A stretch of DNA of 21,424 bases from a virus. The stretch spans positions 1 through 21,424 of IMG/VR virus record IMGVR_UViG_3300022422_000001, one strand, 5' to 3'. Below, piece by piece: positions 4,908 to 21,424 of this stretch. Made by a program: the position numbers and the translations under genes. A model generated the notes under the pieces. That model had not been told where the DNA came from, did not search any database, and saw only the letters and a program-made list of their open reading frames with translations. Every line of letters begins with the position of its first letter. Positions within the stretch are counted from its first letter, which is position 1.

Positions 4908-5066
4908 TTTTTCGCTTTCCGGCGGACATCCGCCCGCCGGTTACGCCCCAACGGACCGGCGGCCAGGGGGCCCCTTCAGAGTATTACTTTGATGGGACCC
5001 CGCCAGTCGGCCGCCCAGCGCGCCCTAGAGCGCGCTGGGGTCGCATCCAGCTTAGATTTTCCAAAA
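4908..5066 (+). repeat. Hairpin-chain intergenic element, copy A (degenerate)
   Basis: This is the gap between the capsid and connector genes. A TTTTTCG end (4908-4914) precedes hairpin I, stem CCGGCGG/CCGCCGG at 4919-4925 and 4934-4940, with ACATCCG in the loop, then TTACG. Further right, a GCC-AGTC-GGC remnant (5002-5011) precedes a perfect 10-bp hairpin, CCCAGCGCGC/GCGCGCTGGG, at 5014-5039. A CCAAAAAACGGGG leader just before the next gene resembles the right end of the other copies. The middle part is not symmetric, so this copy looks decayed. Small open frames across it (4871-5090) consist of repeat sequence and are not called. Confidence 0.75.
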
Positions 5067-5080
5067 AACGGGGATGAGCC

Positions 5081-5656
5081 ATGCCGCTAGTGCTGACGGC
5101 CGCGCCCGCTGCTGAGCCGGTGAGTGTTTCCGAGGCGAAGCAATATCTGCGCATTGACAGCGCCGTCGAAGACCCGGTGGTTGCCAGCCTGATCCTCGCG
5201 GCCCGGCTGCATATCGAGGGCGCGCTGGATATCGCGATGGTGACACAGAGTTGGACGCTGGTCCTCGATCAGTGGCCGGCTGACGGTCGCGTATCGGTCC
5301 CGCTCGGGCCGCTGCAGGGCGTCGACTCCGTCAAGGTCCATGACGCAGACGAGGTTGCTCAGACCGTCTCGCCGCAGACGTATGTGGTTGATCTCTCCTC
5401 GCTGCGCCCGCGACTGGTGCGCAATTCCGGCGCTGTCTGGCCAACGCCCGGCCGGCCGGCGAATGGCATCGAGATCGCCGTAACGGCGGGCTACGGGGAT
5501 ACGCCCGAGACGGTGCCACAGCCGATCCGCCAGGCGGTGCTGCTGCTCGCCGCGCACTGGTATGAGCAGCGCGAGCCGGTTGTCTTTGACCAGCCGGATG
5601 AGCTGCCGCACGGCGTCGCGGACTTGCTGAAGCCTTATCGGCAGGTGCGGCTTTGA
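5081..5656 (+). CDS. Head-tail connector/adaptor (GTA gp6-like, phiE125 gp8 family)
   Basis: The 191-residue protein resembles head-tail adaptors that bind under the portal. Its N-terminal helical region starts EPVSVSEAKQYLRID (11-25) and continues with a helix typical of gp6 connectors (VASLILAARLHIEGAL). A central beta-rich region carries the PLGPLQGVDSVKVHD motif, and the C-terminal helical LPQPIRQAVLLLAAHWYEQRE-like segment is a hallmark of the phiE125 gp8 / RcGTA gp6 family. The chosen ATG follows GGGGATGAGCC; an ATG 8 nt earlier is out of frame. The stop overlaps the next gene's start. Confidence 0.85.
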   Translation: MPLVLTAAPAAEPVSVSEAKQYLRIDSAVEDPVVASLILAARLHIEGALDIAMVTQSWTLVLDQWPADGRVSVPLGPLQGVDSVKVHDADEVAQTVSPQTYVVDLSSLRPRLVRNSGAVWPTPGRPANGIEIAVTAGYGDTPETVPQPIRQAVLLLAAHWYEQREPVVFDQPDELPHGVADLLKPYRQVRL

Positions 5657-5979
5657 GCGCGGGCATCGCAACATTGCGCCAGCGGGTCGTGTTGGAGCGC
5701 CCGGTGCGCGCGGCGGATGACGGCGGCGGCGCGGTCGAGACATGGGAGCAAGTCGCCGAGATCTGGGCGATGATAAAGGCCCAATCAGGCAAGGAGGCCG
5801 TCGAGGCCGACCGGCTGTCCGGCACCCGCAAGGCCGATGTGACGATCCGCTATCGCGCGGACGTTGCGCCGAACATGCGCTTTCGCTTCGGTGATCGCGT
5901 GCTCGACATCCACGCGGTGCTCGATGAGGACGGCCGCCGCAGCTTCCTGAAGTGCAGTTGTGAGGAGCGCGACCTGTGA
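5653..5979 (+). CDS. Head closure/stopper protein (GTA gp7-like, SPP1 gp16 family)
   Basis: The 108-residue protein is a head-completion (stopper) protein of the small beta-barrel type. The IATLRQRVVLERP opening, the GGAVETWEQVAEIWAMIKAQSGKE segment (from about residue 24) and the MRFRFGDRVLDIHAVLDEDGRRSFLKCSCEE ending fit phage head-tail joining proteins. The start is a TTG overlapping the upstream stop (TTGA), and the stop overlaps the next start (GTGA), so the three connector genes are probably translationally coupled. Confidence 0.82.
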   Translation: MSAGIATLRQRVVLERPVRAADDGGGAVETWEQVAEIWAMIKAQSGKEAVEADRLSGTRKADVTIRYRADVAPNMRFRFGDRVLDIHAVLDEDGRRSFLKCSCEERDL

Positions 5980-6341
5980 GGTTTTCCGTGAGGACGCGGG
6001 GAACGGGGCTGGGCGGCCTCTCGCGTGCGCTGGAGCGCACGGATGCGCTTGAACGCGCGGTGAGGACGGGCGCTGAAGACGTGGCGCAGCAGGCGCGGGA
6101 CGGTCTTGAGCGCGACGGCGGCGCGGGCGCTCAGGTGCTCGCGGACACGCTTGAGGTGACGCGTGCGCGGCAGCCACTCAGTTACCGCGTTGCGACGCGG
6201 GCGCCGCTGGCCTGGTTCCGCGAATTCGGCGCGCTGATGCGGGCGCAGCGGCCCTGGCTCCGTCCGGCGCTCACTCGGGCGCGCGGGCGCATTGTCCGCC
6301 GCATTGCCCAGACCCTGCGCGGCATGGTCTCGCGCCGCTAA
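5976..6341 (+). CDS. HK97 gp10-like tail-completion protein (tentative)
   Basis: The 121-residue, strongly basic protein begins with a GTG start in a GTGA overlap. Its helical N-terminal half (LSRALERTDALERAVRTGAEDVAQQARDGLER) and its C-terminal FGALMRAQRPWLRPALTRARGRIVRRI segment recall HK97 gp10 family proteins, whose 'aRPFLrPA' motif near the C-terminus is typical. Location between stopper and DUF3168 terminator fits that family in siphophages. I do not place it at this position in the RcGTA cluster. Family assignment is by motif and position only. Confidence 0.55.
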   Translation: MRFSVRTRGTGLGGLSRALERTDALERAVRTGAEDVAQQARDGLERDGGAGAQVLADTLEVTRARQPLSYRVATRAPLAWFREFGALMRAQRPWLRPALTRARGRIVRRIAQTLRGMVSRR

Positions 6342-6359
6342 TCATATCCGGAGACAGCC

Positions 6360-6761
6360 ATGAGCAGTTGGGCCTTGCAGCGCGAGGTGTATGCGACGCT
6401 CGCCAACGACACCGCCGTCGCCGCGCTTCTGGGCGGCGCGCGCATTTATGACGATGTCCCGCAGGACACGCCGTTCCCGTTCATCACGCTCGGCACCGCT
6501 TCCGTCAGCGACTGGAGCACGGGCACGGAACCGGGGCTGGAGCACCGCCTCGATGTGCATGTCTGGTCGCGCTACGCGGGCAAGCGCCAGGCCTACGAGG
6601 TGATCGACGCGGTACGCGCCGTTCTCCACGACGCATCGCTCAGCTTGAGCGGAGCGGCTCTGGTCAATCTGCGCTGCCAGTCCTTCGAGGTGCGCCGCGA
6701 CGAGGACGGCGAAACCTATCACGGCGTGGCGCGGTTCCGCGCCGTGACCGAACCCGTTTGA
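6360..6761 (+). CDS. DUF3168 tail terminator (GTA gp8-like)
   Basis: The 133-residue protein has the DUF3168 pattern: a helix ending in LANDTAVAALLGG, then ARIYDDVPQDTPFPFITLG (27-45), HRLDVHVWSRYAGKRQAYEVIDAVRAVLHD and a C-terminal beta strand (YHGVARFRAVTEP). In RcGTA the equivalent protein caps the tail tube against the head. CCGGAGACAGCC precedes the ATG with good spacing. It follows the HK97-gp10-like gene by 18 nt and precedes the tail tube gene by 22 nt. Confidence 0.88.
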   Translation: MSSWALQREVYATLANDTAVAALLGGARIYDDVPQDTPFPFITLGTASVSDWSTGTEPGLEHRLDVHVWSRYAGKRQAYEVIDAVRAVLHDASLSLSGAALVNLRCQSFEVRRDEDGETYHGVARFRAVTEPV

Positions 6762-6783
6762 TCCAGGAAACGAGGAGAGACCC

Positions 6784-7197
6784 ATGAGCGCCCAGAAGGG
6801 CAAGGATCTGCTTTTGAAGGTCGACAGCGACGGCGCGGGCAATTTCCAGACGGTTGCAGGATTGCGCGCGCGCACGCTCGCCTTCAACGCGGCCACCGTT
6901 GACATCACCAATACCGAATCCGCCGGCGCGTGGCGCGAATTGCTCGCCGGAGCGGGCATCAAGACCGCGCGCATCTCCGGAAACGGTGTGTTCAAGGATG
7001 CGCAATCGGACGAGATCGTGCGCGGCTATTTCTTCGACGGCGTCCAGCGCGACTGGCAGGTGATCGTGCCGGATTTCGGTACCGTTGAGGGGCCGTTTCA
7101 GGTCACGACGCTCGAATACGCCGGCCAGCATGACGGCGAGATGACCTTCGAGCTGTCGCTGGAATCGGCCGGCCAACTCAGCTTCACGGGGGTGTAA
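6784..7197 (+). CDS. Major tail (tube) protein, TP901-1/GTA gp9-like
   Basis: The 137-residue beta-rich protein has classic tail tube features: the KGKDLLLKVDSDGAGNFQTVAGLR opening, TVDITNTESAGAWRELLAG (38-56), an ISGNGVFKD turn (64-72) and a repeating-strand C-terminus ending GEMTFELSLESAGQLSFTGV. It stacks in hexamers to form the tail tube. GAGGAGA at 6771-6777 is a strong ribosome binding site, as expected for an abundant structural protein. Confidence 0.93.
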   Translation: MSAQKGKDLLLKVDSDGAGNFQTVAGLRARTLAFNAATVDITNTESAGAWRELLAGAGIKTARISGNGVFKDAQSDEIVRGYFFDGVQRDWQVIVPDFGTVEGPFQVTTLEYAGQHDGEMTFELSLESAGQLSFTGV

Positions 7198-7200
7198 GTC

Positions 7201-7542
7201 ATGGTCAATCCGCATCGCGGCGAGATTGAAGCGGTTCTTGGCGGGCTGCCCTATACGCTGTGCCTGACGCTGGGCGCGCTCGCCGAACTGGAGCACGCCT
7301 TTGGCGAGACGGACATGATGGCGCTTGCCGAACGCTTTCAGAGCGGGCGGATCAGCGCGGGCGATGCGCTCAAGATCATCGGCGCGGGCCTGCGCGGGGC
7401 CGGGCATCAGCTCAGCGATGACGATGTGGCGAAACTGCCCGCGCCCGGTGGCGCGCCGGGGTTCGTCGACATCGTCGCGCGGCTGCTGAACGCAACCTTC
7501 GGAGCCCTCACCGATCAGCGGAGCGAGCCCGATGCCGGGTGA
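7201..7542 (+). CDS. GTA gp10-like tail assembly chaperone
   Basis: The 113-residue protein matches the 'gene transfer agent family protein' group found right after the tail tube gene. Its features are HRGEIEAVLGGLPYTLCLTLGALAELEHAFG at the N-terminus, then a helical region with RISAGDALKIIGAGLRGAG and a Pro/Gly-rich linker. In many siphophages two small overlapping genes here encode chaperones for the tape measure, which fits the 11-nt overlap with the next gene. No slippery frameshift site is apparent. Confidence 0.85.
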   Translation: MVNPHRGEIEAVLGGLPYTLCLTLGALAELEHAFGETDMMALAERFQSGRISAGDALKIIGAGLRGAGHQLSDDDVAKLPAPGGAPGFVDIVARLLNATFGALTDQRSEPDAG

Positions 7543-7753
7543 GCCGTCGCGTCGGCCCTTTCCCTGGGACGAGGCCATGGCAATCGGGCTGGGCGTGTTG
7601 CGGCTTGCACCGCGCGACTTCTGGGCAATGACGCCCGTGGAACTGGCGCGCGCCATCTCGGGATTGAACGGCGGGCTGCCTGCAGCGCCGATGACGCGCG
7701 ATAGCCTCGATGGCTTGATCGCGCGCTTCCCGGACAGAGGATCACATGGCTGA
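7532..7753 (+). CDS. Small tail assembly chaperone (rcc01693/TIGR02216 family)
   Basis: The 73-residue protein has the family signature: FPWDEAMAIGLGVLRLAPRDFWAMTPVELARAISG (described by W12, the LRLAPRDFW core and the TPVEL helix). Members occur in RcGTA-type clusters between gp10 and the tape measure and were originally described as phage-specific. The gene overlaps gp10 by 11 nt and the tape measure start by 8 nt, and so is almost certainly translationally coupled to both. Confidence 0.85.
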   Translation: MPGEPSRRPFPWDEAMAIGLGVLRLAPRDFWAMTPVELARAISGLNGGLPAAPMTRDSLDGLIARFPDRGSHG

Positions 7754-8330
7754 AACAGTTGCCGATCTGGCAATCGAGGTGTCGGCGCGCACCGATCAGG
7801 CGCGCGCGCAGCTCAAGGAACTGGAAACGCTCGGCGAGCGGTTCGCCGGACGGCTGGGCCGCTCGTTCGAGAAAGTCGCACTCGATGGAGCCGGCCTGCG
7901 CGACGTGTTGCAGGACCTTGCGCTTGACCTTTCACGGATGGCGCTCCGCTCGGCTTTTGCTCCGGTGGAAAGCGCGATCGCTTCGGCGTTCGGCGGGCTG
8001 GCCGGTGGCATCGCCCCATTCGCGGCTGGCGGGGTGATCCAGCAGGCCATGCCGGTGCCCTTCGCCGATGGCGGCGTGATCAGCGCGCCGGTGTCATTTC
8101 CGTTACGCGGCGGCCGGGTCGGCGTTGCCGGAGAGGCCGGGCCGGAGGCGATCCTTCCGCTTTCACGCGGGCGCGACGGGCGGCTTGGCGTGCGAGCAGA
8201 AGCCGCGGCCGGCGCGACGAACGTCACCGTCAATATCTCCACACCGGATATCGAGGGCTTCCGCCAGAACCAGGGTCAGATCACGGCGCAGATCGCGCGG
8301 GCGGTCGGCAGGGGTCAAAGGAATCTTTAG
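7746..8330 (+). CDS. Short tape measure protein (GTA gp11-like)
   Basis: The 194-residue protein sets tail length and may pass DNA at infection. Residues 1-65 are helical and coiled-coil-like (TDQARAQLKELETLGERFAGR). Residues 75-115 are hydrophobic and Gly/Ala-rich (FAPVESAIASAFGGLAGGIAPFAAGGV). Then comes the typical tape-measure C-terminal block VGVAGEAGPEAILPLSRG (starting at about residue 122), ending NQGQITAQIARAVGRGQRNL. It is tiny compared with most phage tape measures but close to the RcGTA form, so a very short tail is expected. Confidence 0.85.
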   Translation: MAETVADLAIEVSARTDQARAQLKELETLGERFAGRLGRSFEKVALDGAGLRDVLQDLALDLSRMALRSAFAPVESAIASAFGGLAGGIAPFAAGGVIQQAMPVPFADGGVISAPVSFPLRGGRVGVAGEAGPEAILPLSRGRDGRLGVRAEAAAGATNVTVNISTPDIEGFRQNQGQITAQIARAVGRGQRNL

Positions 8331-8963
8331 ATGGCGTTTCACGACATTCGCTTTCCCACCGCGATCTCGCGCGGTGCGAGCGGTGGGCCGGAGCGGCGCA
8401 CCGAGATCGTCACGCTGGGGTCCGGCCATGAAGAGCGCAACCAGCGCTGGGCCGACAGCCGCCGGCGGTATGATGCCGGCTACGGCGTCCGCGGCATCGA
8501 CGATCTCCATGCGGTGATCGCGTTCTTCGAGGAGCGGCGCGGGCGGATGCACGCGTTCCGATGGAGGGACTGGAGTGATTATCGCTCTGGCCCGCCCGGC
8601 AAGGCGCCGGCGATTGATGATCAGGTGATCGCCGTCGGTAACGGCTCGGATGACACCTTCCAGCTTATCAAGGTCTATGGTGCCAGCTTCGCGCCCTGGA
8701 CACGCAGGATCGAAAAACCCGTCCCGGCTTCGGTCAAGGTGGCTGTTGATGGGATTGCGCAGGTGGAGGGTACCGACTTCACGGTCAATGATGCGACCGG
8801 CGTGGTCACTTTCACCACTGCGCCGGCGGGTGGCGCGCAGATCACCGCGGGGTTCGACTTTGACGTGCCCGCCCGCTTCGATACGGACAGGCTGGCCGTG
8901 AGCCTTGAGCACTTCTCGCACGGCGACATTCCGAACATTCCGATCGTGGAGGTGCGGCTGTGA
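8331..8963 (+). CDS. DUF2460 distal tail protein (GTA gp12-like)
   Basis: The 210-residue protein has the strongly conserved DUF2460/TIGR02217 N-terminus: FHDIRFPTAISRGASGGPERRTEI (key residues F7, P8, I11, G14 and G18), the RNQRWADSRRRYDAG block and IAFFEERRGRMHAFRWRDWSDY. Residues after 85 form a beta domain (FQLIKVYG..., VNDATGVVTFTTAPAGG). The product is the distal tail ring linking tube to baseplate. It begins immediately after the tape measure stop. Its TGA is followed directly by repeat element B. Confidence 0.92.
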   Translation: MAFHDIRFPTAISRGASGGPERRTEIVTLGSGHEERNQRWADSRRRYDAGYGVRGIDDLHAVIAFFEERRGRMHAFRWRDWSDYRSGPPGKAPAIDDQVIAVGNGSDDTFQLIKVYGASFAPWTRRIEKPVPASVKVAVDGIAQVEGTDFTVNDATGVVTFTTAPAGGAQITAGFDFDVPARFDTDRLAVSLEHFSHGDIPNIPIVEVRL

Positions 8964-8964
8964 G

Positions 8965-9206
8965 TTTTTGCTGTCCGGCGGACATCCGTGCGCCGGTTTA
9001 CGCGCCTAAGGCGCGACGCCCGGTCGGGCTTACAGCCGCGCCGGCGGCGCGCCTGGGGCGCAAAACGCGGGAGTGGGAACAATCCCAGCCGCGGATCTGC
9101 GCGGCTGAGCCGCCGACTGGCGGCCGGCCCGTTGGGCCGTATCCGGGCCATGAAGCCAAAGGCGGGCGCGAATGCGACCAATATGGTCCGGTCTGCAAAA
9201 AAGGCC
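8965..9206 (+). repeat. Hairpin-chain intergenic element, copy B (inverted pair plus cloverleaf-like end)
   Basis: The left arm starts with TTTTTGC (8965-8971). Hairpins follow: I 8975-8996 (CCGGCG stem, loop with ACATCCG), II 9001-9015 (CGCGCC/GGCGCG, loop TAA), III 9018-9029 (GCCCG-GT-CGGGC) and IV 9037-9051. The right arm is the same series reversed: IV' 9086-9107 (CAGCCGCG/CGCGGCTG), III' 9109-9124 (GCCGCC-GACT-GGCGGC) and II' 9125-9139 (CGGCCC-GTT-GGGCCG). Where hairpin I' is expected there is instead a 9-bp stem, 9143-9151 with 9183-9191 (one G-T pair), enclosing a 31-nt loop shared with copy D. A TGCAAAAAAGG leader then provides the ribosome binding site of the peptidase gene. Confidence 0.85.
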
Positions 9207-9210
9207 GCTC

Positions 9211-9669
9211 ATGAGCGACCGAGAAGTTTTCGACGACATGAGCCATCGCGTTGTCGAAGCCGCGCGCGGCTGGCTCGGCACGCCTTATCATCATCAGGCT
9301 GCGGTGAAGGGCGCGGGCTGCGACTGCCTCGGGCTGATCCGCGGCGTCTATGCCGAAGTGATGGGGCGCGAGCCGGAGACGCCGCCGGCCTATTCGCGCG
9401 ACTGGGCGGAAATGCGCGGCGAGGAAACCCTCCTCGAAGCGGCGCGGCGGCACCTTTCGCTGCGCGCCACGAGCGAGCGGCCACAGCCCGGCGATGTCCT
9501 GATCTTCCGGATGAAGAAAGGCGCGCTCGCCAAGCATTCCGGCATCGTGAGCGCGGTGGCTGATGGCGCGCCGACACGCATGATCCATGCGCAGGAAGGC
9601 GCCGGTGTTGTCGAGATCAACCTTTCGCGGTGGTGGCGCCGGCGGATTGTTGGGGTTTTTAGTTTTTAG
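9211..9669 (+). CDS. NlpC/P60-type tail peptidase (GTA gp14-like)
   Basis: The 152-residue protein is a cysteine peptidase likely to cut peptidoglycan stem peptides during DNA delivery. WLGTPYHHQAAVKGAGCDCLG (starting at residue 21) contains the catalytic Cys39, with His109 in AKHSGIV and His126 in MIHAQEGAGV completing the family's catalytic residues. The ATG at 9211 is preferred because AAAAAAGG lies 6 nt upstream; an in-frame ATG at 9238 is an alternative. In RcGTA this gene follows the DUF2163 hub gene. Here it sits before the hub gene and is flanked on both sides by hairpin elements. Confidence 0.92.
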   Translation: MSDREVFDDMSHRVVEAARGWLGTPYHHQAAVKGAGCDCLGLIRGVYAEVMGREPETPPAYSRDWAEMRGEETLLEAARRHLSLRATSERPQPGDVLIFRMKKGALAKHSGIVSAVADGAPTRMIHAQEGAGVVEINLSRWWRRRIVGVFSF

Positions 9670-9670
9670 G

Positions 9671-9933
9671 GTCCGCGAGCCTTCCGGCTCGCGGCTACCG
9701 GCCAAGCCGGGGGGCAGTGGATTCTTCACGGTCCGAGCCACATCCGTGGCTCGATTACGGGCCTGAGGCCCGGCCGCCGGTCGGCGGCTCAGCGCGCAAG
9801 AGCGCGCTGTAGAGGCAGTGCCCACGTTAGCGTTTAGCGCCCCAGCGCGCCCGAAGGGCGTGCTAAGCCGCCGACCGGCGGCCGGCGCTTAGCGCCGAAA
9901 CGGCGGGACGGATGTCCCGTCGACTGCAAAAAA
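9671..9933 (+). repeat. Hairpin-chain intergenic element, copy C (partial arm plus inverted pair)
   Basis: A partial arm comes first: a 9-bp hairpin CCGCGAGCC-TTCC-GGCTCGCGG at 9673-9694, then CCGGC-CAA-GCCGG at 9698-9710. The full left arm follows: I 9734-9753 (CGAGCCA/TGGCTCG around CATCCG), ATTACG, II 9759-9771 (GGGCC-TGA-GGCCC), III 9773-9788 (GCCGCC-GGTC-GGCGGC) and IV 9790-9809 (CAGCGCGC-AAGA-GCGCGCTG). The inverted right arm is IV' 9844-9864, III' 9867-9882 (loop GACC), II' 9883-9897 (CGGCGC-TTA-GCGCCG) and I' 9904-9919 (CGGGAC-GGAT-GTCCCG), then TGCAAAAAAGGAGA. The first 9-bp hairpin lies a few bases after the peptidase stop and could also act as a 3'-end stabiliser. Confidence 0.88.
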
Positions 9934-9946
9934 GGAGACCTAGCAC

Positions 9947-10351
9947 ATGCCTGATATCGCAGACGGAATTCTCGATCAACTGGTGGACTGGATCATCGGC
10001 AAGTCCGATCCGGTCCCCGCTTCTGGCACGCGCTATGTCGCGCTGTTCGACGGCGATCCGCAGGGCGCCGGCTCGGAAGTCACGACCACCATTCGCCCCT
10101 CCGGGCGGCTGGCGATCACATCGAGCATGGAAGCTGCCGGGACCACCAACACCGGCGAGAGTTCATCGACAGCGGACATTGACTTCGGCAACGCCGATAG
10201 CGGCGCGACGGTCTCGCATATCGCCATTTATGACAGCGCCTCGGGCGGGACGCTGCTGGCCTCGGATGCGCTCACGGGCGGATCGCAGACCGTGACGGCG
10301 GGCAACCCGGTGAAAATCCCCTCGGGCGATCTGACGGTGAGCATTAGCTAA
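9947..10351 (+). CDS. Tail-fibre-like small structural protein
   Basis: The 134-residue protein resembles small phage proteins often annotated as tail fibre proteins. It has an N-terminal helix (IADGILDQLVDWIIG), a strand reading TRYVALFDGDPQGAGSEVT, a central Thr/Ser-rich region, SHIAIYDSASGGTLLASDALT and a C-terminal strand pair ending IPSGDLTVSIS. GGAGA lies within the element C leader with good spacing to the ATG. It lies between elements C and D as a single-gene cassette and has no equivalent that I know of in the RcGTA cluster. The family is recognised by pattern only; the function is inferred. Confidence 0.5.
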   Translation: MPDIADGILDQLVDWIIGKSDPVPASGTRYVALFDGDPQGAGSEVTTTIRPSGRLAITSSMEAAGTTNTGESSSTADIDFGNADSGATVSHIAIYDSASGGTLLASDALTGGSQTVTAGNPVKIPSGDLTVSIS

Positions 10352-10437
10352 GGCCGGCCACATCCGTAGGCCGGTTGCCGGCGGACGAAGCCGTAAGGCG
10401 GGCGCGAAGCGACCAATGTCCGCCGGACAGTCAACAA
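10352..10437 (+). repeat. Hairpin-chain intergenic element, copy D (short form with cloverleaf-like end)
   Basis: Hairpin I is at 10354-10374 (CCGGCC/GGCCGG, loop ACATCCGTA) and starts within 2 nt of the upstream stop codon. It is followed directly by the second fold: a perfect 9-bp stem, CCGGCGGAC at 10378-10386 with GTCCGCCGG at 10418-10426. The stem encloses a 31-nt loop that itself contains GCC-GTAA-GGC and CGC-GAA-GCG mini-hairpins and ends in ACCAAT. The same loop, with a different but complementary outer stem, occurs in copy B. ACAGTCAACAAAGAGATCCT then leads to the next ATG. Confidence 0.82.
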
Positions 10438-10446
10438 AGAGATCCT

Positions 10447-10791
10447 ATGACCACGCTGAACCTGGAAGCGGCGACCAACGCCGACTGGCGCCAGCCGTTC
10501 AAGGCGGCTGACGCGGCCGGCGGGGACCTGAGCCTGACCGGCGCGACGATCCGCATGGATGTCCGCGACCGGGGCGGGACCAGCGCGCTGTCGCTGGCGC
10601 TCGGGTCCGGCCTGACCGTGACCGATGCGGCGGCGGGCGAATTCGAGCTCGAGGTCGACCGCGACGACATGGCCGGCATCGCGCCGGGGCTGTATGGCTT
10701 CGACCTGCTGATAGAGATCGACGGGCTGGCGCTGACGGCCGCGCGCGGCACGGTGCACATCCGCGACGGGGTGACTGAATGGCCCGCGTGA
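10447..10791 (+). CDS. Hypothetical small beta-rich tail-module protein
   Basis: The 114-residue protein alternates predicted strands: LSLTGATIRMDVRDRGGTSALSLALGSGLTV (from about residue 28), then FELEVDRDDMAGIAPGLYGFDLLIEIDGLALTAARGTVHIRDGVT. The layout recalls small immunoglobulin-like or baseplate/fibre-associated domains that precede fibre genes in phages, but I cannot assign a family. AAAGAGA upstream supports the ATG at 10447 over an in-frame GTG at 10375 that lies inside repeat element D. The 3' end overlaps the next gene by 13 nt, so the two products are probably partners. Confidence 0.7.
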   Translation: MTTLNLEAATNADWRQPFKAADAAGGDLSLTGATIRMDVRDRGGTSALSLALGSGLTVTDAAAGEFELEVDRDDMAGIAPGLYGFDLLIEIDGLALTAARGTVHIRDGVTEWPA

Positions 10792-12125
10792 CCATCACAT
10801 ACGGCGAGCCGCGCCGGACGGTCGTTTACCCCGCCGCGCCGGAGAACCTGTCGAAGCTGCTCGGCGCGATGGTGAACAGCGCGATCAGCGTTGCGCCAGG
10901 CGTCCGGCAGGATCATCTCCTCGACGCGGCGCTGGCCGCCTCGGGGGCTTTTGCCGGCGGGCCGCTGGTCACGGAGATTTTCAACCTGGAGGCGCTGCTC
11001 GATGTCAACGGCACGTTGTCTGCGGGGCTCAGCCAGGCGCAAGGCCTGTCGGCGCAACTCGACGCAACCGGCGATCTGGCCGCGAACACGCAGCAGGACC
11101 ACCTCGGCGCGCTGGATATCTTCGCCCTGTCCGTCCTCACGGCCAGCATCCAGACCGACATCCTGCTCGGCGCGCAGATGGACACCACGGGCGATCTGGC
11201 CGGCGACGTGACCTCGCAATCGGCCTCGAACGACATGCAGGCCGCGGCGGTGACGTATTCCGGCTCCGGGGCCGCGCAGTCGATTACCGGCGTCGGGTTC
11301 CAGCCCGATATGGTTATCATCCTGAGCCGCGCAGACACCTCGGGGATCAGCGTTTACATCGGCGACCGCATCTCGCTTGGCCCCGGCGTGATCTGGGACG
11401 CGCAGCATAGCGACGGTTTCTTCTTCGAGGATAACGTCACCTTCTCCAGCACCATCACCTCTTACGATACCGACGGCTTCTCGGTTGAGGACAATGACCG
11501 GGTGAACGATAGCAGCAAGTTCTATCTGGCCTTGTGCTTCAAGGGGGGCGATCAGTTCGAGGTGATCGACAAGCAGAACGACGGCACCAGCGGGCAGGTG
11601 GTCGCGCACAGCCTGTCCACCGCGCCGGTCTGGGCGTTCATCAAGCAACCGAGCGAGACGGCTGGCGAATGGCTCAACGAATGGACGGTTGGCTCGCAGC
11701 ACGCCGAGGCCTTTGGTGAGTTCTTCGTGGGCGGCGGCAGCGACACGTTGCAGGCCGTATCCGCCAGCGATGTCACGCTGGGCACCGATGGACGTTGGAA
11801 CCCGAACGACACCAACACCGCGGCGCTTTATCTGTTCGGCAGCGCGGCCATCTCCGGCAAGTACGAAACCGGCACCTACACCGGAACCGGCGGATCAAAC
11901 AACGCGATCACCGGGCTGGGCTTCAAGCCGGAATTCGTGCTGGTGCGCTCGGCTGACGATCAGCACGTCTTCTTGCTGAGCGAAGAGCTGATCCCGGACA
12001 CTGCGGCCAACCTGACCAATGGCGACCGGGACGCCGCCTTCACGCTCGACACTGACGGCTTCACCGTGGACAGCGGCAACATGAACGCGTCGGGCGATCA
12101 GTATCGGTATTTCGCATGGGGCTGA
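10779..12125 (+). CDS. Modular tail fibre / receptor-binding-like protein
   Basis: The 448-residue protein has two parts. Residues 45-145 contain degenerate repeats of the form LDxxGxLA (LDVNGTLS 74-81, LDATGDLA 94-101, MDTTGDLA 134-141). Residues 155-448 hold three related beta modules: VTYSGSGAAQSITGVGFQPDMVII (from 158), QVVAHSLSTAPVWAFIKQ (from 273) and YTGTGGSNNAITGLGFKPEFVLV (from 367). The first and last modules finish with DTDGFSVEDND- and DTDGFTVDSGN-type strands. This 'GFxPxxV...DGF' pattern is common in phage tail fibre C-termini. It ends 1 nt before the DUF2163 gene. Receptor binding is inferred, not shown. Confidence 0.55.
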   Translation: MARVTITYGEPRRTVVYPAAPENLSKLLGAMVNSAISVAPGVRQDHLLDAALAASGAFAGGPLVTEIFNLEALLDVNGTLSAGLSQAQGLSAQLDATGDLAANTQQDHLGALDIFALSVLTASIQTDILLGAQMDTTGDLAGDVTSQSASNDMQAAAVTYSGSGAAQSITGVGFQPDMVIILSRADTSGISVYIGDRISLGPGVIWDAQHSDGFFFEDNVTFSSTITSYDTDGFSVEDNDRVNDSSKFYLALCFKGGDQFEVIDKQNDGTSGQVVAHSLSTAPVWAFIKQPSETAGEWLNEWTVGSQHAEAFGEFFVGGGSDTLQAVSASDVTLGTDGRWNPNDTNTAALYLFGSAAISGKYETGTYTGTGGSNNAITGLGFKPEFVLVRSADDQHVFLLSEELIPDTAANLTNGDRDAAFTLDTDGFTVDSGNMNASGDQYRYFAWG

Positions 12126-12126
12126 G

Positions 12127-13017
12127 ATGATGGAGCTTCCCGCAGAATTGCAGGCGCATCTCGACACCGGCGCGACCACCCTTTGTTGGTGCTGGCGTCT
12201 CACGCGGACGGACGGCACCGAGCTGGGCTTCACCGACCATGACCGCGATCTCGCCTTCGACGGCACCACATTTCAGGCAGACAGCGGGTTCACGGCAAGC
12301 GAAATCGCCTCCTCGGTAGGCTTGAGCGTGGACAACCTCGAGGCCGAGGGCGCGCTGCAATCCGGGCACATGAGCGAGACTGATCTTGCCAAGGGGCTTT
12401 ATGACAACGCGGTTGTCGAGGTCTGGCGCGTCAACTGGGCCGATGTCGCGGAGCGGGTGTTGGTGCGCAAGGGCAATCTGGGCGAGGTGACGATCCAGGA
12501 CGGGGCCTTTGTGGCGGAAATCCGGGGGGTGGCGCACGCGCTCAACCAGACGCAGGGCCGGGTCTTTCAGGCACAGTGTGACGCGGATCTGGGCGATGCG
12601 CGCTGCACGGTTGATCTCGACAGCGCGGCGTTCAAGACCTCCGGCACGGTGGACAGCACATCCTCGGACACGCGCTTTGTCGTGACCGGCCTCGACAGCT
12701 TCGATGCCGGGTGGTTCACGCGCGGCTTCCTGACATGGGATACCGGCGGCAATGCCGGCCAGAAGATGGAGGTGAAGCGCCACACCAAGGCGGACGGGAC
12801 CGTGACCATCGGGGTGTGGCAGACGCCTGCGGTGGCGGTGGCAGCGGGAGACACCTTCACCATCCGCGCGGGCTGCGATAAGCAGTTCACAACCTGCCGG
12901 GACAAGTTCTCCAATGTGGCGAACTTCCGGGGCTTCCCGCACATTCCGGGCAATGATTTCGTGGTGCAGGTTGCGGAACGGAACGACCCGGACAATGACG
13001 GCGGGAGTATGAATTAA
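12127..13017 (+). CDS. DUF2163 baseplate hub protein (GTA gp13-like)
   Basis: The 296-residue protein has the DUF2163/TIGR02218 pattern: TTLCWCWRLTRTDGTELGFTDHDRDL (from 18), FTASEIASSVGLSVDNLEAEGAL (55-77), VEVWRVNWAD, and the C-terminal block GCDKQFTTCRDKFSNVANFRGFPHIPG (249-275). Four cysteines, C151, C160, C250 and C257, occur in a CX8C...CX6C arrangement fitting a metal or Fe-S site, as reported for the related lambda gpL hub. The start is an ATG two bases after the preceding stop; an ATG at the second codon is equally possible. The stop overlaps the next start (TAATG). Confidence 0.92.
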   Translation: MMELPAELQAHLDTGATTLCWCWRLTRTDGTELGFTDHDRDLAFDGTTFQADSGFTASEIASSVGLSVDNLEAEGALQSGHMSETDLAKGLYDNAVVEVWRVNWADVAERVLVRKGNLGEVTIQDGAFVAEIRGVAHALNQTQGRVFQAQCDADLGDARCTVDLDSAAFKTSGTVDSTSSDTRFVVTGLDSFDAGWFTRGFLTWDTGGNAGQKMEVKRHTKADGTVTIGVWQTPAVAVAAGDTFTIRAGCDKQFTTCRDKFSNVANFRGFPHIPGNDFVVQVAERNDPDNDGGSMN

Positions 13018-16000
13018 TGGCCACATTAGTCCTGGGCGCAGCCGGCGCGGCGGCGGGGTCTGCCCTGCTGCCTGCCGGCGTTTCCGTGTTGGGGGCAACG
13101 CTCGGCGGCGCGGCTATCGGGCGCGCGGTCGGCACCCTTGCGGGGACCTTCATTGACCAGGCGCTTTTCGGCGCAACCGGCCAGGCGCAGCCCGGCGAGG
13201 GGCCGCGCATCTCTGACACGCAGGTCACGGCCTCCACCGAGGGCACGCCGATCCCGCGCGTGTATGGCCGCGCGCGCCTCGGCACGCAACTGATCTGGGC
13301 CACCAATCTGGAGGAGGTTGTCGAGAACAACGGGGGCGGCAACGATGGCTTCTTCAAGGGTATCGGCGGCTCCTCCTCCTCGAGCGGCAAGACCTACAAG
13401 TATTTCGCCAACTTCGCGGTCGCGCTTTGCGAGGGGCCGATCAGCCATATCGGGCGGGTCTGGGCCGATGGCGACGAGGTGGACCTGACGCTGTTCACGT
13501 ACCGCGTCTACAAGGGCACCGAGACCCAGACCGCTGACAGCCTGATCGAGAGCAAGGAGGGCGCGGACAATGCCCCGGCCTATCGCGGGCTTGCCTATAT
13601 CGTCTTCGAGCGCATGCCGCTCAATCAGTTCGGGGACCGCATCCCGCAACTGAATGTCGAGGTGTTCAAGCCCGTTGATGATCTGGAAAAGGATATCCAG
13701 GCGGTCACGGTGATCCCGGCGGCCAGCGAGTTCGCTTACGACCCGGAAGAAACGGTCATCCGTGATATAGGCGCGGGGTTCTGGGAACCCACGAACAACT
13801 GGACGAAACGCGAGGGCACCGACTGGGCGGTCTCGCTCGACAACCTCCAGGACGTGATCTCCAACGTGGACGCGGTGAGCCTGTTCGTGACGTGGTTCGG
13901 CGATGATCTGCGCTGCGGCCAGTGCGACATCAAGCCGAAGGTGGACACGAACGACAAGGACACCAAGCCTTACACCTGGAAGGTGCAGGGGATCGGGCGT
14001 GGCGGCGCGGAGGTGGTCAGCGACAAGCCCGGCGGCGGCGTGGCCTTCGGTGGCACCCCGGCGGACCGGGCGGTGCGCGATGCCATCGCGGATATCCAGG
14101 ACCGGGGCCTGAAAGCCGTTCTCACGCCGTTCCTGCTCATGGACATTCCCGAGAACAACGGGCTGCCCGATCCCTATTCGAGCGCGACAGACCAGCCGGT
14201 TTATCCCTGGCGCGGGCGGATCACCTGCGACCCGGCCCCCGGCGCGACCAGCACGGTGGATCAGACCGCCACGGCGCGCACGCAGATCGAGAGCTTCGAG
14301 GGGACTTGCGCGGTCTCCGACTTCACCATTACGACCGATAACGAGGTGATCTATAGCGGGCCGAACGAATGGAGCTATCGCCGCTTCATCCTGCACTACG
14401 CCCATCTCTGCAAGGCCGCGGAGAACATCTCCGGCACGCCGGTGGAAGCCTTCGTGATCGGCACCGAGCAGCCTTATCTCACATGGGTCCGGGACCAGAA
14501 CGATGCCTTCCCGTTCGTGGACGCACTGGTCACGCTGGCCGCGGACGTGAAGTCGGTTCTACCCAACACGAAAGTCACCTACGCGGCGGACTGGACGGAG
14601 GTTGCGCCCTTCCAGACCTCGCAATTCGGCGGGCCATCGGGCGAGATATTCTTTCACCTGGACCCGTTGTGGTCCTCGCCCAACATCGACGCCATCGGCA
14701 TCGACAACTATTGGCCGTTGTCGGACTGGCGCGATGGCGAGAGCCATCTGGACTTCCAGGCTGGCAACCCGTCGATCTATGACGCGGCCTACCTGCGCGG
14801 CAATATCGAGGGCGGCGAGGGTTATGACTGGTTTTACGCCTCGAAAGCGGACCGGGACGCCCAGACCCGCACCGACATCACCGACGGGGCCGGCAAGCCG
14901 TGGGTGTTCCGCTTCAAGGACATCAAGTCGTGGTGGGAAAACCAGCACTTCGACAGGCCGGGCGGGACCGAGAACACCAGCGCGACGACCTGGACCCCGG
15001 AGAGCAAACCGTTCTGGATGATGGAACTCGGCTGTCCGGCGGTGGACAAGGGGGCCAACCAGCCGAACGTGTTTTTCGATCCCAAATCGAGCGAAAGCCA
15101 GCTTCCCTATTATTCCAACGGCTCGCGCGATGATCTGATGCAGCGCCGGTACATCACGGCGTTCCTCGGATACTGGGACGAGAACGACCCGGACTTCGTG
15201 GCCGGCAATAACCCATTGTCGAGCGTCTATGCGGGGCGCATGGTCGATCTCAGCCGGGTGTTCATCTACACCTGGGACGCGCGCCCCTATCCCGCGTTCC
15301 CGAACCTGGACTTCATCTGGTCGGATGCCGAGAACTGGAAATTCGGGCACTGGATCACGGGGCGGGCCTCGGACGCGCCTGTCTCGCAGGCCATCCGCAA
15401 AATCCTCGCGGACTACGGCTTCGAGAATGTCTCGATCCCCACGGTTGCCGGCGATCTCTCCGGCTATGTGATCGAGCGCAACATGTCGCCGCGCGATGCC
15501 TTGCAGCCGCTCGAGACCACGTTCTTTCTCGATGCCGTCGAAAGTGCCGGACAAATCGCCCTGCGCGCGCGTGGTCAGGCGGAAAGCCTTGGAACGGTGG
15601 ATCACGACGGTGTTGTCGAAAACGCCCGTACAGCGGCGCGTGTGAGCGTTACACGGGGTCAGGAGACCGAACTGCCGGGCCGCGCGCGGATCAGCTACTT
15701 CGACGCGGAAAACGAATACAAGAGCGCCAGCGTCGAGACCCTGAAACTGACCGGGGCCTCGGATCGCGTCTCGACGGTCTCGCTGGCGGCCACGGCGCGC
15801 CAGTCGGTGATGTACGCGGCGGCTGAAAAGCTGTTGCGTGAGCAGTGGGCCGCGCGCGAGCGGTTGTCGTTTTCCCTGCCGCCGTCGCTGATGAAGGCCG
15901 AGCCGGGCGATCTCATCACGGTGAACACCGGCGCGCGCAACCTTCCGGCACGGATCACGCGGATCACGCAGGGCGCGGCACTGGAGATCGAGGCGCTGAG

Positions 16001-17009
16001 CCACGAGCGCGGGGTTTATGAGGAACTGGACGCGCCGGACACCTCGGGCACGCCGAACACCAGCACGGTCTACGGGCCGCCGGAGGTGGCGTTCATGGAC
16101 CTGCCGCTCATCACCGGGAACGAGGTGGCTCATGCCGGTTATGTGGCGGCGTTCTCCAACCCGTTCGGCGGGGTGGATTTCTACCGCTCGCCGCAGACCA
16201 CGAACTTCAACCTGAATAGCCAGGTCGCCGCCCCGTCCACGCTTGGCGAGACCGAAACCGATCTTTACTCGGGGCCGACCTCGCGGTTTGACCGGGGCAA
16301 CGTGCTGCGCATCAAACTGTTCCCGCAAGGGGTCACGCTGGAAAGCGTCAACGATCTGAGCCTGTTCGACGGGGCCAACACCTTGGCCGTGGAGGGCGCG
16401 GACGGAGCTTGGGAGGTGTTGCAGTTCCGGGATGCGCAGCTTGTCGCGCCGGGGGTGTACGACCTGACCAATCTGCTTCGGGGGCAATACGGCACCGAGG
16501 ACGCGATGGCGGACCCGGTGGCAAGCGGGGCGCGGGTGGTGCTGCTCGACGGCAGCGCGGTCCAGGTGGCGATGGAACAAAGCGAGATCGGGCTGCCGTA
16601 TAACTGGCGATATGGGCCAAGCCCGGAACCGCTGGATAACTTCGCTTACACGACCGTGCAGCACGCCTTCACCGGGCGGGGTCTCAAGCCGTTTTCGCCT
16701 GTGCATGTGGCGGGCAGCCGCGACGGCGCGGGCGACCTCACCATCTCGTGGATACGGCGGGCGCGCGTGAATGGCGATGCGTGGGAACCCTCGAGCGTGC
16801 CGCTGAATGAGCCATCGGAAGGCTACGAGGTGGACATTCTCGACGGGGCCACGGTGGTGCGCACGCTGACCGCCAGCAGCCCGAGCGTGGTTTACACGGC
16901 GGCACAGCAGACAACCGACTTCGGGGGCGCGCAATCGAGCGTGGACGTGGTGGTGTATCAGATGAGCGATGTGGTCGGGCGCGGCACGGGCCGGGCGGGG
17001 GTTGTATAG
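13017..17009 (+). CDS. GTA gp15-like TIM-barrel tail tip protein
   Basis: The 1330-residue protein is the large central baseplate/tail-tip component. It has a hydrophobic Gly/Ala-rich N-terminal segment (about 1-52) and a first beta region with PIPRVYGRARLGTQLIW. A glycoside-hydrolase-like TIM barrel follows (about 440-790), with FWMMELGCPAVDKGANQPN near 668-684 and QRRYITAFLGYW. Next is the Phage-tail_3 region (about 875-970: RGQETELPGRARISYFDAENEYKS), then C-terminal beta domains. Length matches RcGTA gp15. The barrel has been suggested to degrade cell-surface glycans; activity cannot be judged here. The last gene of the tight operon, it is followed by element E. Confidence 0.93.
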   Translation: MATLVLGAAGAAAGSALLPAGVSVLGATLGGAAIGRAVGTLAGTFIDQALFGATGQAQPGEGPRISDTQVTASTEGTPIPRVYGRARLGTQLIWATNLEEVVENNGGGNDGFFKGIGGSSSSSGKTYKYFANFAVALCEGPISHIGRVWADGDEVDLTLFTYRVYKGTETQTADSLIESKEGADNAPAYRGLAYIVFERMPLNQFGDRIPQLNVEVFKPVDDLEKDIQAVTVIPAASEFAYDPEETVIRDIGAGFWEPTNNWTKREGTDWAVSLDNLQDVISNVDAVSLFVTWFGDDLRCGQCDIKPKVDTNDKDTKPYTWKVQGIGRGGAEVVSDKPGGGVAFGGTPADRAVRDAIADIQDRGLKAVLTPFLLMDIPENNGLPDPYSSATDQPVYPWRGRITCDPAPGATSTVDQTATARTQIESFEGTCAVSDFTITTDNEVIYSGPNEWSYRRFILHYAHLCKAAENISGTPVEAFVIGTEQPYLTWVRDQNDAFPFVDALVTLAADVKSVLPNTKVTYAADWTEVAPFQTSQFGGPSGEIFFHLDPLWSSPNIDAIGIDNYWPLSDWRDGESHLDFQAGNPSIYDAAYLRGNIEGGEGYDWFYASKADRDAQTRTDITDGAGKPWVFRFKDIKSWWENQHFDRPGGTENTSATTWTPESKPFWMMELGCPAVDKGANQPNVFFDPKSSESQLPYYSNGSRDDLMQRRYITAFLGYWDENDPDFVAGNNPLSSVYAGRMVDLSRVFIYTWDARPYPAFPNLDFIWSDAENWKFGHWITGRASDAPVSQAIRKILADYGFENVSIPTVAGDLSGYVIERNMSPRDALQPLETTFFLDAVESAGQIALRARGQAESLGTVDHDGVVENARTAARVSVTRGQETELPGRARISYFDAENEYKSASVETLKLTGASDRVSTVSLAATARQSVMYAAAEKLLREQWAARERLSFSLPPSLMKAEPGDLITVNTGARNLPARITRITQGAALEIEALSHERGVYEELDAPDTSGTPNTSTVYGPPEVAFMDLPLITGNEVAHAGYVAAFSNPFGGVDFYRSPQTTNFNLNSQVAAPSTLGETETDLYSGPTSRFDRGNVLRIKLFPQGVTLESVNDLSLFDGANTLAVEGADGAWEVLQFRDAQLVAPGVYDLTNLLRGQYGTEDAMADPVASGARVVLLDGSAVQVAMEQSEIGLPYNWRYGPSPEPLDNFAYTTVQHAFTGRGLKPFSPVHVAGSRDGAGDLTISWIRRARVNGDAWEPSSVPLNEPSEGYEVDILDGATVVRTLTASSPSVVYTAAQQTTDFGGAQSSVDVVVYQMSDVVGRGTGRAGVV

Positions 17010-17250
17010 TTTGTTTTTGTCGTCGGCGGGCGGCGAGTCTTTAGCTGTCCGGGGGGGGCATCCGTCCCCCGGTTACGCGGCTAAGCCGCGGCGGCCGGTC
17101 GGCCGCTCAGCACGCTCTTCGGGCGCGCTGGGGGGAGGTTCCCTCGTAAGCGAAGGCGCGCCCCAGCCGCGCATCTGCGCGGCTGAAAGGCCGACCGGCC
17201 GCCGCGCGTTGCGCGAAACCGAAGCGCGGATGCGCTTCGGAAAGCAAAAA
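17010..17250 (+). repeat. Hairpin-chain intergenic element, copy E (complete inverted pair)
   Basis: The left arm follows a TTTGTTTTTG run: I 17049-17072 (CCGGGGG/CCCCCGG, loop with CATCCGT), GGTTACG, II 17076-17090 (CGCGGC-TAA-GCCGCG), III 17091-17106 (GCGGCC-GGTC-GGCCGC) and IV 17108-17130 (imperfect, loop CTTCGG). A spacer is followed by the inverted right arm: IV' 17164-17185 (CAGCCGCG-CATCTG-CGCGGCTG), III' 17189-17200 (GGCC-GACC-GGCC), II' 17205-17215 (CGCG-TTG-CGCG) and I' 17219-17240 (CCGAAGCGC-GGAT-GCGCTTCGG), then AAAGCAAAAAGAGAGA, which serves as the ribosome binding site of the next gene. This is the clearest full-length copy. The open frame running through it from 16969 is not considered coding. 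Confidence 0.88.
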
Positions 17251-17262
17251 GAGAGACATAAC

Positions 17263-18063
17263 ATGCCAAGTTCACCAAATCTCGTTGTGCCGTTTATCGA
17301 GGCGGCGCAGGCGCAGAAGCATGTCACGCACAACGAGGCGCTGCGCGTGCTCGATGCCGCCGTTCAGCTATCCGTTCTCGATCGCGATCTGACCGATCCC
17401 CCCGGCGCACCGGGCGACGGCGATCGTTATATCCCGGCCTCGGGCGCGACGGGCGCATGGTCTGGCAAGGACCTCAACATCGCGGCGTGGCAGGACGGCG
17501 CCTGGGCGTTCCTGGTGCCGCGCGAGGGCTGGCTGTGCTGGGTCGCGGACGAGGACGTGCTGCTGGTCTGGGATGGCGCACAATGGGCTGATGCAAGCGC
17601 GGTCGCCAGCCTGAACCCGGCGACCGGCGGTCTGGTCGGCGTCAACGCCACGGCGGATGCCACGAACCGCCTCTCGGTCACGGCCCCGGCGGCGCTGTTC
17701 AATGCCGAGAGCGATCATTTCAACGCCAAGATCAACAAGTCCACGGCCGGCGACACAGCCAGCTTCATGTTTCAGCAGGGCTTCACGACCTATGCTGAGT
17801 TCGGCCTGATCGGCGATAACGACCTCACCTTCAAGGTCTCGGACGGGACCGGCTTCTTCACCTCATTCAAGATCGGCAACGCCGATGGCGAAATGGCGAT
17901 GGAGCAGCCACTCGGCCTCAAAGCCTACTCCAAGTCCAGCCTGCCGCCGGTCTCGCCCGCCGGGCGTCTGATCTGGGTTTTCGATGACAGCAACGGCGCG
18001 ACCGTCGCCTTTTCCGACGGCGGCGGCTGGAAGCGCCTGCACGACCGGACGGCGATTGCCTGA
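17263..18063 (+). CDS. DUF2793 protein (GTA head-spike-like)
   Basis: The 266-residue protein begins with the DUF2793 signature: SPNLVVPFIEAAQAQKHVTHNEALRVLDAAVQLSVLDRDL (key AQAQKHVTHNEAL at 15-27), then DPPGAPGDGDRYIPASGATGAWSGKDLNIAAWQDGAWAFLVPREGWLCWVADED. The C-terminal part is beta-rich and ends in a GTVAFSDG-type strand (ATVAFSDGGGWKRL). DUF2793 occurs in RcGTA head spikes, which help particles bind capsular polysaccharide, and in phage tail proteins. The ATG at 17263 follows AAAAAGAGAGA; the frame is open upstream to 16969, but that part is repeat element E. Confidence 0.85.
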   Translation: MPSSPNLVVPFIEAAQAQKHVTHNEALRVLDAAVQLSVLDRDLTDPPGAPGDGDRYIPASGATGAWSGKDLNIAAWQDGAWAFLVPREGWLCWVADEDVLLVWDGAQWADASAVASLNPATGGLVGVNATADATNRLSVTAPAALFNAESDHFNAKINKSTAGDTASFMFQQGFTTYAEFGLIGDNDLTFKVSDGTGFFTSFKIGNADGEMAMEQPLGLKAYSKSSLPPVSPAGRLIWVFDDSNGATVAFSDGGGWKRLHDRTAIA

Positions 18064-20645: not shown

Positions 20646-20680
20646 GGCCGCAAGCCCCTCGGGCTGCGGCCGTTTCGTTA
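20646..20680 (+). terminator. Terminator of the SleB-like gene
   Basis: The stem GGCCGCAAGCCC / GGGCTGCGGCC (11 pairs with one bulged A, loop CTC) is followed on the plus strand by GTTTCGTTATT. It would stop plus-strand transcripts running toward pufC. The tail overlaps the pufC stop codon. Confidence 0.6.
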
Positions 20681-21424
20681 TTGGCTCACGGTCAACAGCG
20701 AGGGATAGTCCTTCGCCATCTGCGCGCCGTAGAGCGGTTTATTCACGCCATAGTGGCAAGTAGCGCAGTTCGCCTTCGGTGCGTCGCCGAGAGCGCCGAG
20801 CCGCTTTTCGGGGTAGGTGTCACGGAGCGGGATTAGGTAATCCACGTTCAGGTTGCGCACCATCTCCAGCCCGTGCCACGCATTGACGCGCATCGGGGTG
20901 CTCTGGCTCCATTCCGCAACCGCTCGGGAGTTGTGGCAGTAGGTGCAGTTCACGCCGAGCGATTCGGACATGTGGATCATCAGCCCATAGGTCCGTTCGG
21001 TGTGCTGGATCGAAGTGCCGCCGGCGGCCGTCGGCAGAGGCCGGTCGCCGACAACGCGGATTTCCGCGTCAGGCGAAGCGATCTGGCCCGGGAAGTCATG
21101 CGGCAGGGAAGACATCCCGACGGTCTCGTCCGGCCGGTTCTGCCCCTGGCGCGCCTGAACGAAGCTTGCCATCCCTTCCTTGCTCGGATCCTTGAACCAG
21201 ATGTTCTGAGGAACCGGCTGGCCACGGTGGCAGGTCCAGCACGTCACGCCGGTATCACCGACATGCTGCGTCCAGTTCGCATTGATATGCTGGGTCATCT
21301 GCAGCATCCGCCGCGAGACCACCTTGGTGTAGAGCGAGTCGGATGACAGCGGCTCGCCTTGCGCGTGGCAGTAGTTGCAGCCCTCGTCTGCGGGGGCGAC
21401 CCATTCCGTGATCGCCGCCATCAG
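20678..21424 (-). CDS. pufC: Photosynthetic reaction centre cytochrome c subunit, N-terminus cut by the window edge
   Basis: PufC carries electrons from soluble cytochrome c2 or HiPIP to the special pair of the reaction centre on the periplasmic side. At least 247 C-terminal residues are visible, with all four heme-binding motifs, numbering from the first visible Met: CNYCH 15-19, CWTCH 61-65, CTYCH 159-163 and CATCH 219-223. Around them are the family helices (RRMLQMTQHIN, GLMIHMSESLGVNC, MRVNAWHGLEMVRNLN) and the GVNKPLYG ending. The lipoprotein or membrane anchor and first part of the protein lie beyond 21424. The gene is normally last in pufBALMC, so the rest of the operon should follow to the right. 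A terminator lies downstream. Confidence 0.96.
   Translation of the reverse strand: MMAAITEWVAPADEGCNYCHAQGEPLSSDSLYTKVVSRRMLQMTQHINANWTQHVGDTGVTCWTCHRGQPVPQNIWFKDPSKEGMASFVQARQGQNRPDETVGMSSLPHDFPGQIASPDAEIRVVGDRPLPTAAGGTSIQHTERTYGLMIHMSESLGVNCTYCHNSRAVAEWSQSTPMRVNAWHGLEMVRNLNVDYLIPLRDTYPEKRLGALGDAPKANCATCHYGVNKPLYGAQMAKDYPSLLTVSQ

Follow-up and report, generated by a model that had tools for sequence, protein, structure and literature searches.

Hairpin-chain repeats at gene boundaries of an RcGTA-like cluster, a probable nonautonomous mobile element of alphaproteobacteria

Several gaps between the morphogenesis genes of an RcGTA-like cluster are filled with chains of small hairpins. What are these sequences, and why do they lie between the genes of a GTA? 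The cluster is part of a 21.4-kb fragment in IMG/VR (record IMGVR_UViG_3300022422_000001; the whole stretch of 21,424 nucleotides is called the window here), which has a G+C content of 66%. It encodes a terminase, an HK97-type capsid, head completion, tail, and baseplate proteins, and GTA_TIM.

Repeat copies in the window

The initial annotation described five copies (A to E) that share one plan of loops, linkers, and ends, three of them (B, C, and E) consisting of a hairpin chain followed by the same chain reversed, with TTTTTGC and GCAAAAA at the ends. We found three full inverted head-to-head pairs, B (8964-9202), C (9722-9933), and E (17038-17251), with lengths of 212 to 239 bp, as described (Table 1). 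The loops, linkers, and ends of the shared plan were also correct; copy D lacks the full plan. Copy A does contain the chain of hairpins I to IV, but a palindrome of 35 nt (GGGGCCCC...GGGACCCC) interrupts its hairpin III. The palindrome has GCCAG on both flanks (4962-4966 and 5002-5006), is absent in the related locus L052, and seems to be a different micro-palindrome that was inserted recently. A long-loop form of hairpin I, with ATTGGTCGC..CGCGCCCGCCTT..GGCTTC in place of ATCC, is common to the hairpin I copies at about 9135-9190 and 10378-10422 and could be a nested repeat or a loop module of another kind.

The longest open reading frames of the NlpC/P60 and DUF2793 genes extend into element sequence (in the stretches 9172-9210 and 16969-17263), and the right end of copy B falls within the former frame. 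The true starts of these genes are probably at 9211 and 17264, respectively.

Table 1. Repeat copies and empty sites in the window
Feature	Position	Strand	Remarks
Copy A, single half-unit (hairpins I-IV)	4908..5043	+	Between major capsid gene and g6; R1 61 bits, R3 E 1.9e-9
Imperfect 35-nt palindrome in hairpin III loop of copy A	4967..5001	.	Compare intact L052 GGCGGCCAGTCGGCCGC
Copy B, left half-unit	8964..9061	+	R3 E 3e-14
Copy B, center between halves	9062..9079	.	
Copy B, right half-unit, hairpin I long-looped, end GCAAAAAA	9080..9202	-	R3 E 1.1e-10
Copy C, left half-unit, T-rich end degenerate	9722..9815	+	R3 E 1.8e-14; DNA fold z -5.9
Copy C, center	9816..9836	.	Minus strand resembles L053 copy centers
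Copy C, right half-unit, end GCAAAAAA	9837..9933	-	R3 E 1.7e-12
Copy D, reduced: hairpin I plus mirrored long-loop hairpin I	10352..10446	.	Sequence and fold
Copy E, left half-unit	17038..17136	+	R3 E 6.6e-12
Copy E, center	17137..17157	.	
Copy E, right half-unit, end GCAAAAA	17158..17251	-	R3 E 2e-16
Empty site, g12 start immediately after g11 stop codon	8328..8333	+	Filled in L143, L083, L161, L053
Empty site, g13/g15 overlap	13012..13020	+	L053: 209-nt gap with full element

Architecture of the unit

The repeat is built from a unit of about 95 nt, in which a T-rich end (TTTTTGCTGTC) is followed by four hairpins. Hairpin I carries CATCCG and closes on ATCC; after the linker TTACG come hairpins II and III, whose loops are TAA-type and GGTC, respectively, and then TCAGC, hairpin IV, and GCTGGGG, hairpin IV being enclosed by CAGC..GCTGGGG. 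Two such units placed head to head around an asymmetric center make up the full element of about 205 to 240 bp, which ends in TTTTTGC and GCAAAAA. The centers are alike between the copies of the window and those of L053 (e.g., CTGGGGTGGCAAACGCTGGCGTGGACACCGCCCCAG). Single units and pairs of hairpin I look like reduced forms of the full element, and in L083 a further hairpin is inserted within hairpin I. Tandem amplification of variant units also occurs: locus L262 (1257-1595; genome G310) has three of them in tandem, about 115 to 130 bp apart on one chromosome.

Model R1 was built on an alignment of 18 half-units taken from the window and other IMG/VR contigs. The four-hairpin structure paired 90% of the cells in this alignment, compared with 34 to 42% when the partners were slid. 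In an alignment of 47 copies, 94% of the cells were paired (32 to 49% with slid partners) and 24 of 28 pairs had changed on both sides, counts biased in favor of the model, to which the alignment had been fitted. No shuffle of the 47 copies reached the observed pairing values. Within the stems, G-C and C-G occur about equally at many positions, even between the copies of a single locus, and the pairs that close the loops are nearly invariant, with loops and linkers constant. Strong covariation was also seen among the chromosomal variants described below.

An independent model (R3), with a structure predicted by RNAalifold, was trained on other prophages only (nine copies from L026, L049, and L061). 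It recovered all seven half-units of the window (E values from 2e-16 to 2e-9). The strict pattern occurred twice in the window and on average 0.00 times in 100 shuffles. As single strands, the half-units fold 2.3 to 5.9 standard deviations better than shuffled sequences.

Filled and empty sites among related clusters

We compared the gene boundaries of the window with those of near cluster relatives, whose capsid proteins are 90% or more identical. At g5/g6, the element is present in the window and in L052, where the orthologue of copy A is intact, and the site is empty in L085 (61-nt gap). At g12/g14 and g14/f1, the window has the element and L052 and L161 are essentially gap-free; the site of copy D is likewise nearly gap-free in these two loci and holds a full element in L053. 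The reverse is seen at g11/g12, gap-free in the window and in L052 and filled in L143, L083, L161, and L053, and at g13/g15, where the genes overlap in the window and only L053 has an element, in a gap of 209 nt.

Empty sites, which the initial annotation had advised looking for together with target duplications, thus exist at several gene boundaries. No consistent target duplication was found: ATGGC is duplicated on both flanks of the element at g11/g12 in L143 only, and none was clear at the other filled and empty sites compared. The further statement, which restricts the elements to places without gene overlap, is circular, since the insertion itself separates the genes.

In four other loci (L084 and L086 to L088), the GTA gaps are occupied by unrelated palindromic repeats, some of which resemble CGTC-tagged REPs (PMC3733652). 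Because several repeat families occupy the same GTA gaps, gene boundaries seem to act as tolerated landing sites. The gaps g2/g3, g3/g4, and g5/g6 of L084, L086, L087, and L088 contain other palindromes (GTCATTGCGAGCGAAGC.., GTCATCCCGGG.., and GTCATTGCCGGACTTGATCC..). The gap g8b/g9 of L087 (7093-7216) holds the repeat GCATTCCGAAAAGTGGGAACCGGTTTTCGGAATAAAATGCGC, which we take to be one that also occurs in rhizobial genomes.

Distribution beyond the GTA cluster

Strong copies were found in other records as well: 11 in G389 (25.7 kb), 9 in G393 (20.5 kb), 3 in G396 (9.4 kb), and 8 in the GTA fragment G395. According to Pfam, G393 is P2-like (sheath, tape measure, and GPD) and G396 is Mu-like (GemA); G389 is another prophage. 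Copies lie on either strand relative to the genes.

Bacterial chromosomes carry variants of the repeat. Model R1 matched only two of 385 alphaproteobacterial genomes (G232 and G280), with G232 then giving 12 matches. Most searches for variants were done with model R2, trained partly on chromosomal variants, which matched 13 of the 385 genomes at an E value of ≤1e-3. In two orders, with the limit set at ≤1e-4, it matched 24 of 221 genomes (order of G149) and 10 of 40 (order of G327). The variants keep the hairpin order and the loops; in most lineages TCAAACGCCGGGCG replaces the T-rich end, which the variants of some lineages retain. By blastn, the variant type was found in Niveispirillum, Azospirillum, and Tistrella plasmids. 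R2 confirmed Niveispirillum cyanobacteriorum as a carrier; it matched neither the Azospirillum nor the Tistrella records.

Copies of the window type itself have so far all come from viral contigs. Genomes sampled from the class, from the order of G004, and from two further orders contained none, and when the window-type unit was compared with phages and plasmids by blastn, the only matches were weak and partial and are taken as chance. In the distant GTA relatives L005 to L025, regular-expression matches were rejected as chance, and R1 found nothing there. Judging by hairpin order, loops, and model scores, the window type appears to be kin to the chromosomal variants. The model search for copies outside the cluster that had been proposed at the outset therefore points to a bacterial repeat family rather than a GTA-specific one, because same-type copies sit in unrelated prophages and variants sit on chromosomes.

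Comparison with known repeats

Curated Rfam models had no match in the window at an E value of ≤1, and in related loci they gave only a tRNA and subthreshold chance matches. The open-access literature yielded no published plan like the four-hairpin chain, only papers on REP, REPIN, and CGTC-REP sequences, and a search for the sequence motifs returned a single unrelated paper. As the initial annotation supposed, no named family turned up; the four-hairpin family is real and is undescribed in Rfam and the literature searched.

RIME and other mosaic palindromic elements of rhizobia are alphaproteobacterial and intergenic and consist of several palindromes. Their multipalindrome intergenic makeup is like that of our element. 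They seem to differ in distribution: the strict window-type pattern, which is blind to variants, occurred in 0 of 398 genomes from the order to which both the Beijerinckiaceae MAG G004 and the rhizobia belong. ERIC, RU-1/2, and Correia elements are MITE-like imperfect inverted repeats of 100 to 250 bp that are gained and lost between genes. Each is one long hairpin, whereas the present element strings together short hairpins whose loops are conserved and has no clear target duplication. RU elements are described in PMC2759123.

REP, BIME, and REPIN sequences are associated with RAYT (TnpA_REP) transposases. They are short, mostly intergenic palindromes, single or in inverted pairs, and are presumed to be nonautonomous mobile elements (PMC3116915, PMC2817692, and PMC3733652). 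The element of the window likewise consists of intergenic palindromes that occur singly or as inverted pairs. A REP is defined as a single hairpin of 20 to 40 bp that carries a terminal GTAG or CGTC tag (PMC3733652). Our unit has about 95 nt and four hairpins instead of one, with free stems and fixed loops, and the alignments A1, A4, and A6 of the element contained neither tag. The same difference in size and hairpin number separates it from the CGTC-tagged REPs, which are alphaproteobacterial and have no known dedicated transposase (PMC3733652). As in a MITE (about 100 to 600 bp), the full element is noncoding, measures 205 to 239 bp, and has terminal inverted repeats (TTTTTGC..GCAAAAA). It thus behaves like a REP/REPIN or a MITE while lacking the tag and the size of a REP, in line with the earlier suggestion of a miniature mobile or REP-like element made of modular hairpins. 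The family appears to be newly found kin of palindromic repeats already known from bacteria, and not a phage invention.

Origin and spread of the element

We consider it likely that the gaps are occupied by a dispersed nonautonomous mobile palindromic repeat, which spreads among the genomes of alphaproteobacteria and comes to lie at the edges of genes. The observations behind this reading are the common architecture, the covariation, presence and absence between relatives, the occurrence on several replicon types, and both orientations. An enzyme acting in trans would copy the element, which would settle at gene edges, those of prophage and GTA genes included. The copies in the GTA operon are then probably tolerated passengers between genes.

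If the element is mobile, the likeliest mobilizer would be an enzyme of the HUH/Y1 type acting on single-stranded DNA, a favored guess that we put forward tentatively. Such an enzyme may read the folded single strand, as for REPs and IS200/IS605, and the conserved loops and linkers, set against freely varying stems, are our reason for favoring it. Second to it, and rather unlikely, comes cut-and-paste movement of a MITE by a DDE transposase through the TTTTTGC/GCAAAAA terminal repeats, with the remaining probability left to other mechanisms. These repeats, the length of about 210 bp, the inverted organization, and the ATGGC on both sides in L143 are what such a MITE should have; the sites without a clear duplication, the many single halves, and the TCAAACGCCGGGCG of other lineages in place of the T-rich end speak against it.

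The hairpins could instead be structured RNA modules that act in cis on the stability, processing, or attenuation of the polycistronic GTA mRNA. Structured RNA typically shows such strong covariation and conserved loops, the GTA copies all lie between codirectional genes, and there is some G-U excess in other lineages. We nevertheless regard this explanation as improbable. In window-clade stems, G-U pairs do not exceed A-C pairs (15 versus 19), and for the GTA copies read in the mRNA sense the numbers are 7 and 5; with a mixed picture in other lineages, these counts do not decide the matter. Intrinsic terminators (a GC-rich hairpin directly followed by a T run) are not indicated either: there were 14 such sites compared with 9.1 ± 3.5 in shuffles, and element copies end in GCAAAAA on either strand. 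Five single copies in L026, a part of G389, appear to be antisense to genes, judging by open reading frame direction and CAT start codons. Because close relatives lack copies at the same sites and orientation is mixed, a cis-acting RNA role is disfavored as the reason why the element exists; it could remain as a side effect of the passenger.

The viral origin of all window-type copies known so far would suit an element specific to phages or GTAs, for example, one controlling packaging or gene order. This is very unlikely, as the carriers are three unrelated phage types plus the GTA, not one type, and chromosomal variants adjoin ordinary genes: one lies next to urtE-fmdA in Tistrella (a blastn match only) and another beside a gene read as rpmH. 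Chance hairpins, common though small hairpins are in DNA of this G+C content, are refuted by the shuffle counts, the covariation, the R3 matches, and the fold z-scores.

Returning to the mobile repeat, the window type and the chromosomal variants may together form a class-wide alphaproteobacterial superfamily, with lineage-specific sequences, a constant order of hairpins and loops, a machinery that reads the hairpins and copies the elements, and an age great enough to span several orders; we rate the prospects of this broader proposal as slightly below even. If it is true, many alphaproteobacterial genomes carry a repeat class for which we found no curated RNA-library description and no paper. 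Because the loops of this class are fixed and the stems free, the idea of an enzyme reading folded DNA could be tested on it. The results also call for caution, in that intergenic hairpins in GTA operons may be passengers and are not necessarily regulators.

Other features of the cluster

A pufC-type reaction-centre cytochrome gene (Pfam CytoC_RC; 20678-21424, minus strand) adjoins the GTA cluster, and the host is therefore probably phototrophic. A suspected further gap at 7543-7745 was dropped, as this stretch is coding by sequence (g10.1). The gene order at 9211-17009 is unusual for a GTA: the NlpC/P60 gene precedes the hub gene, with a fiber-like Gp80 gene and a DUF7483 gene between the two, and a DUF2793 gene is located after GTA_TIM. 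The DUF7483 protein (10779-12125) is 39 to 45% identical among relatives, compared with about 75 to 87% for the neighboring genes, and is a candidate fast-evolving receptor-binding protein.
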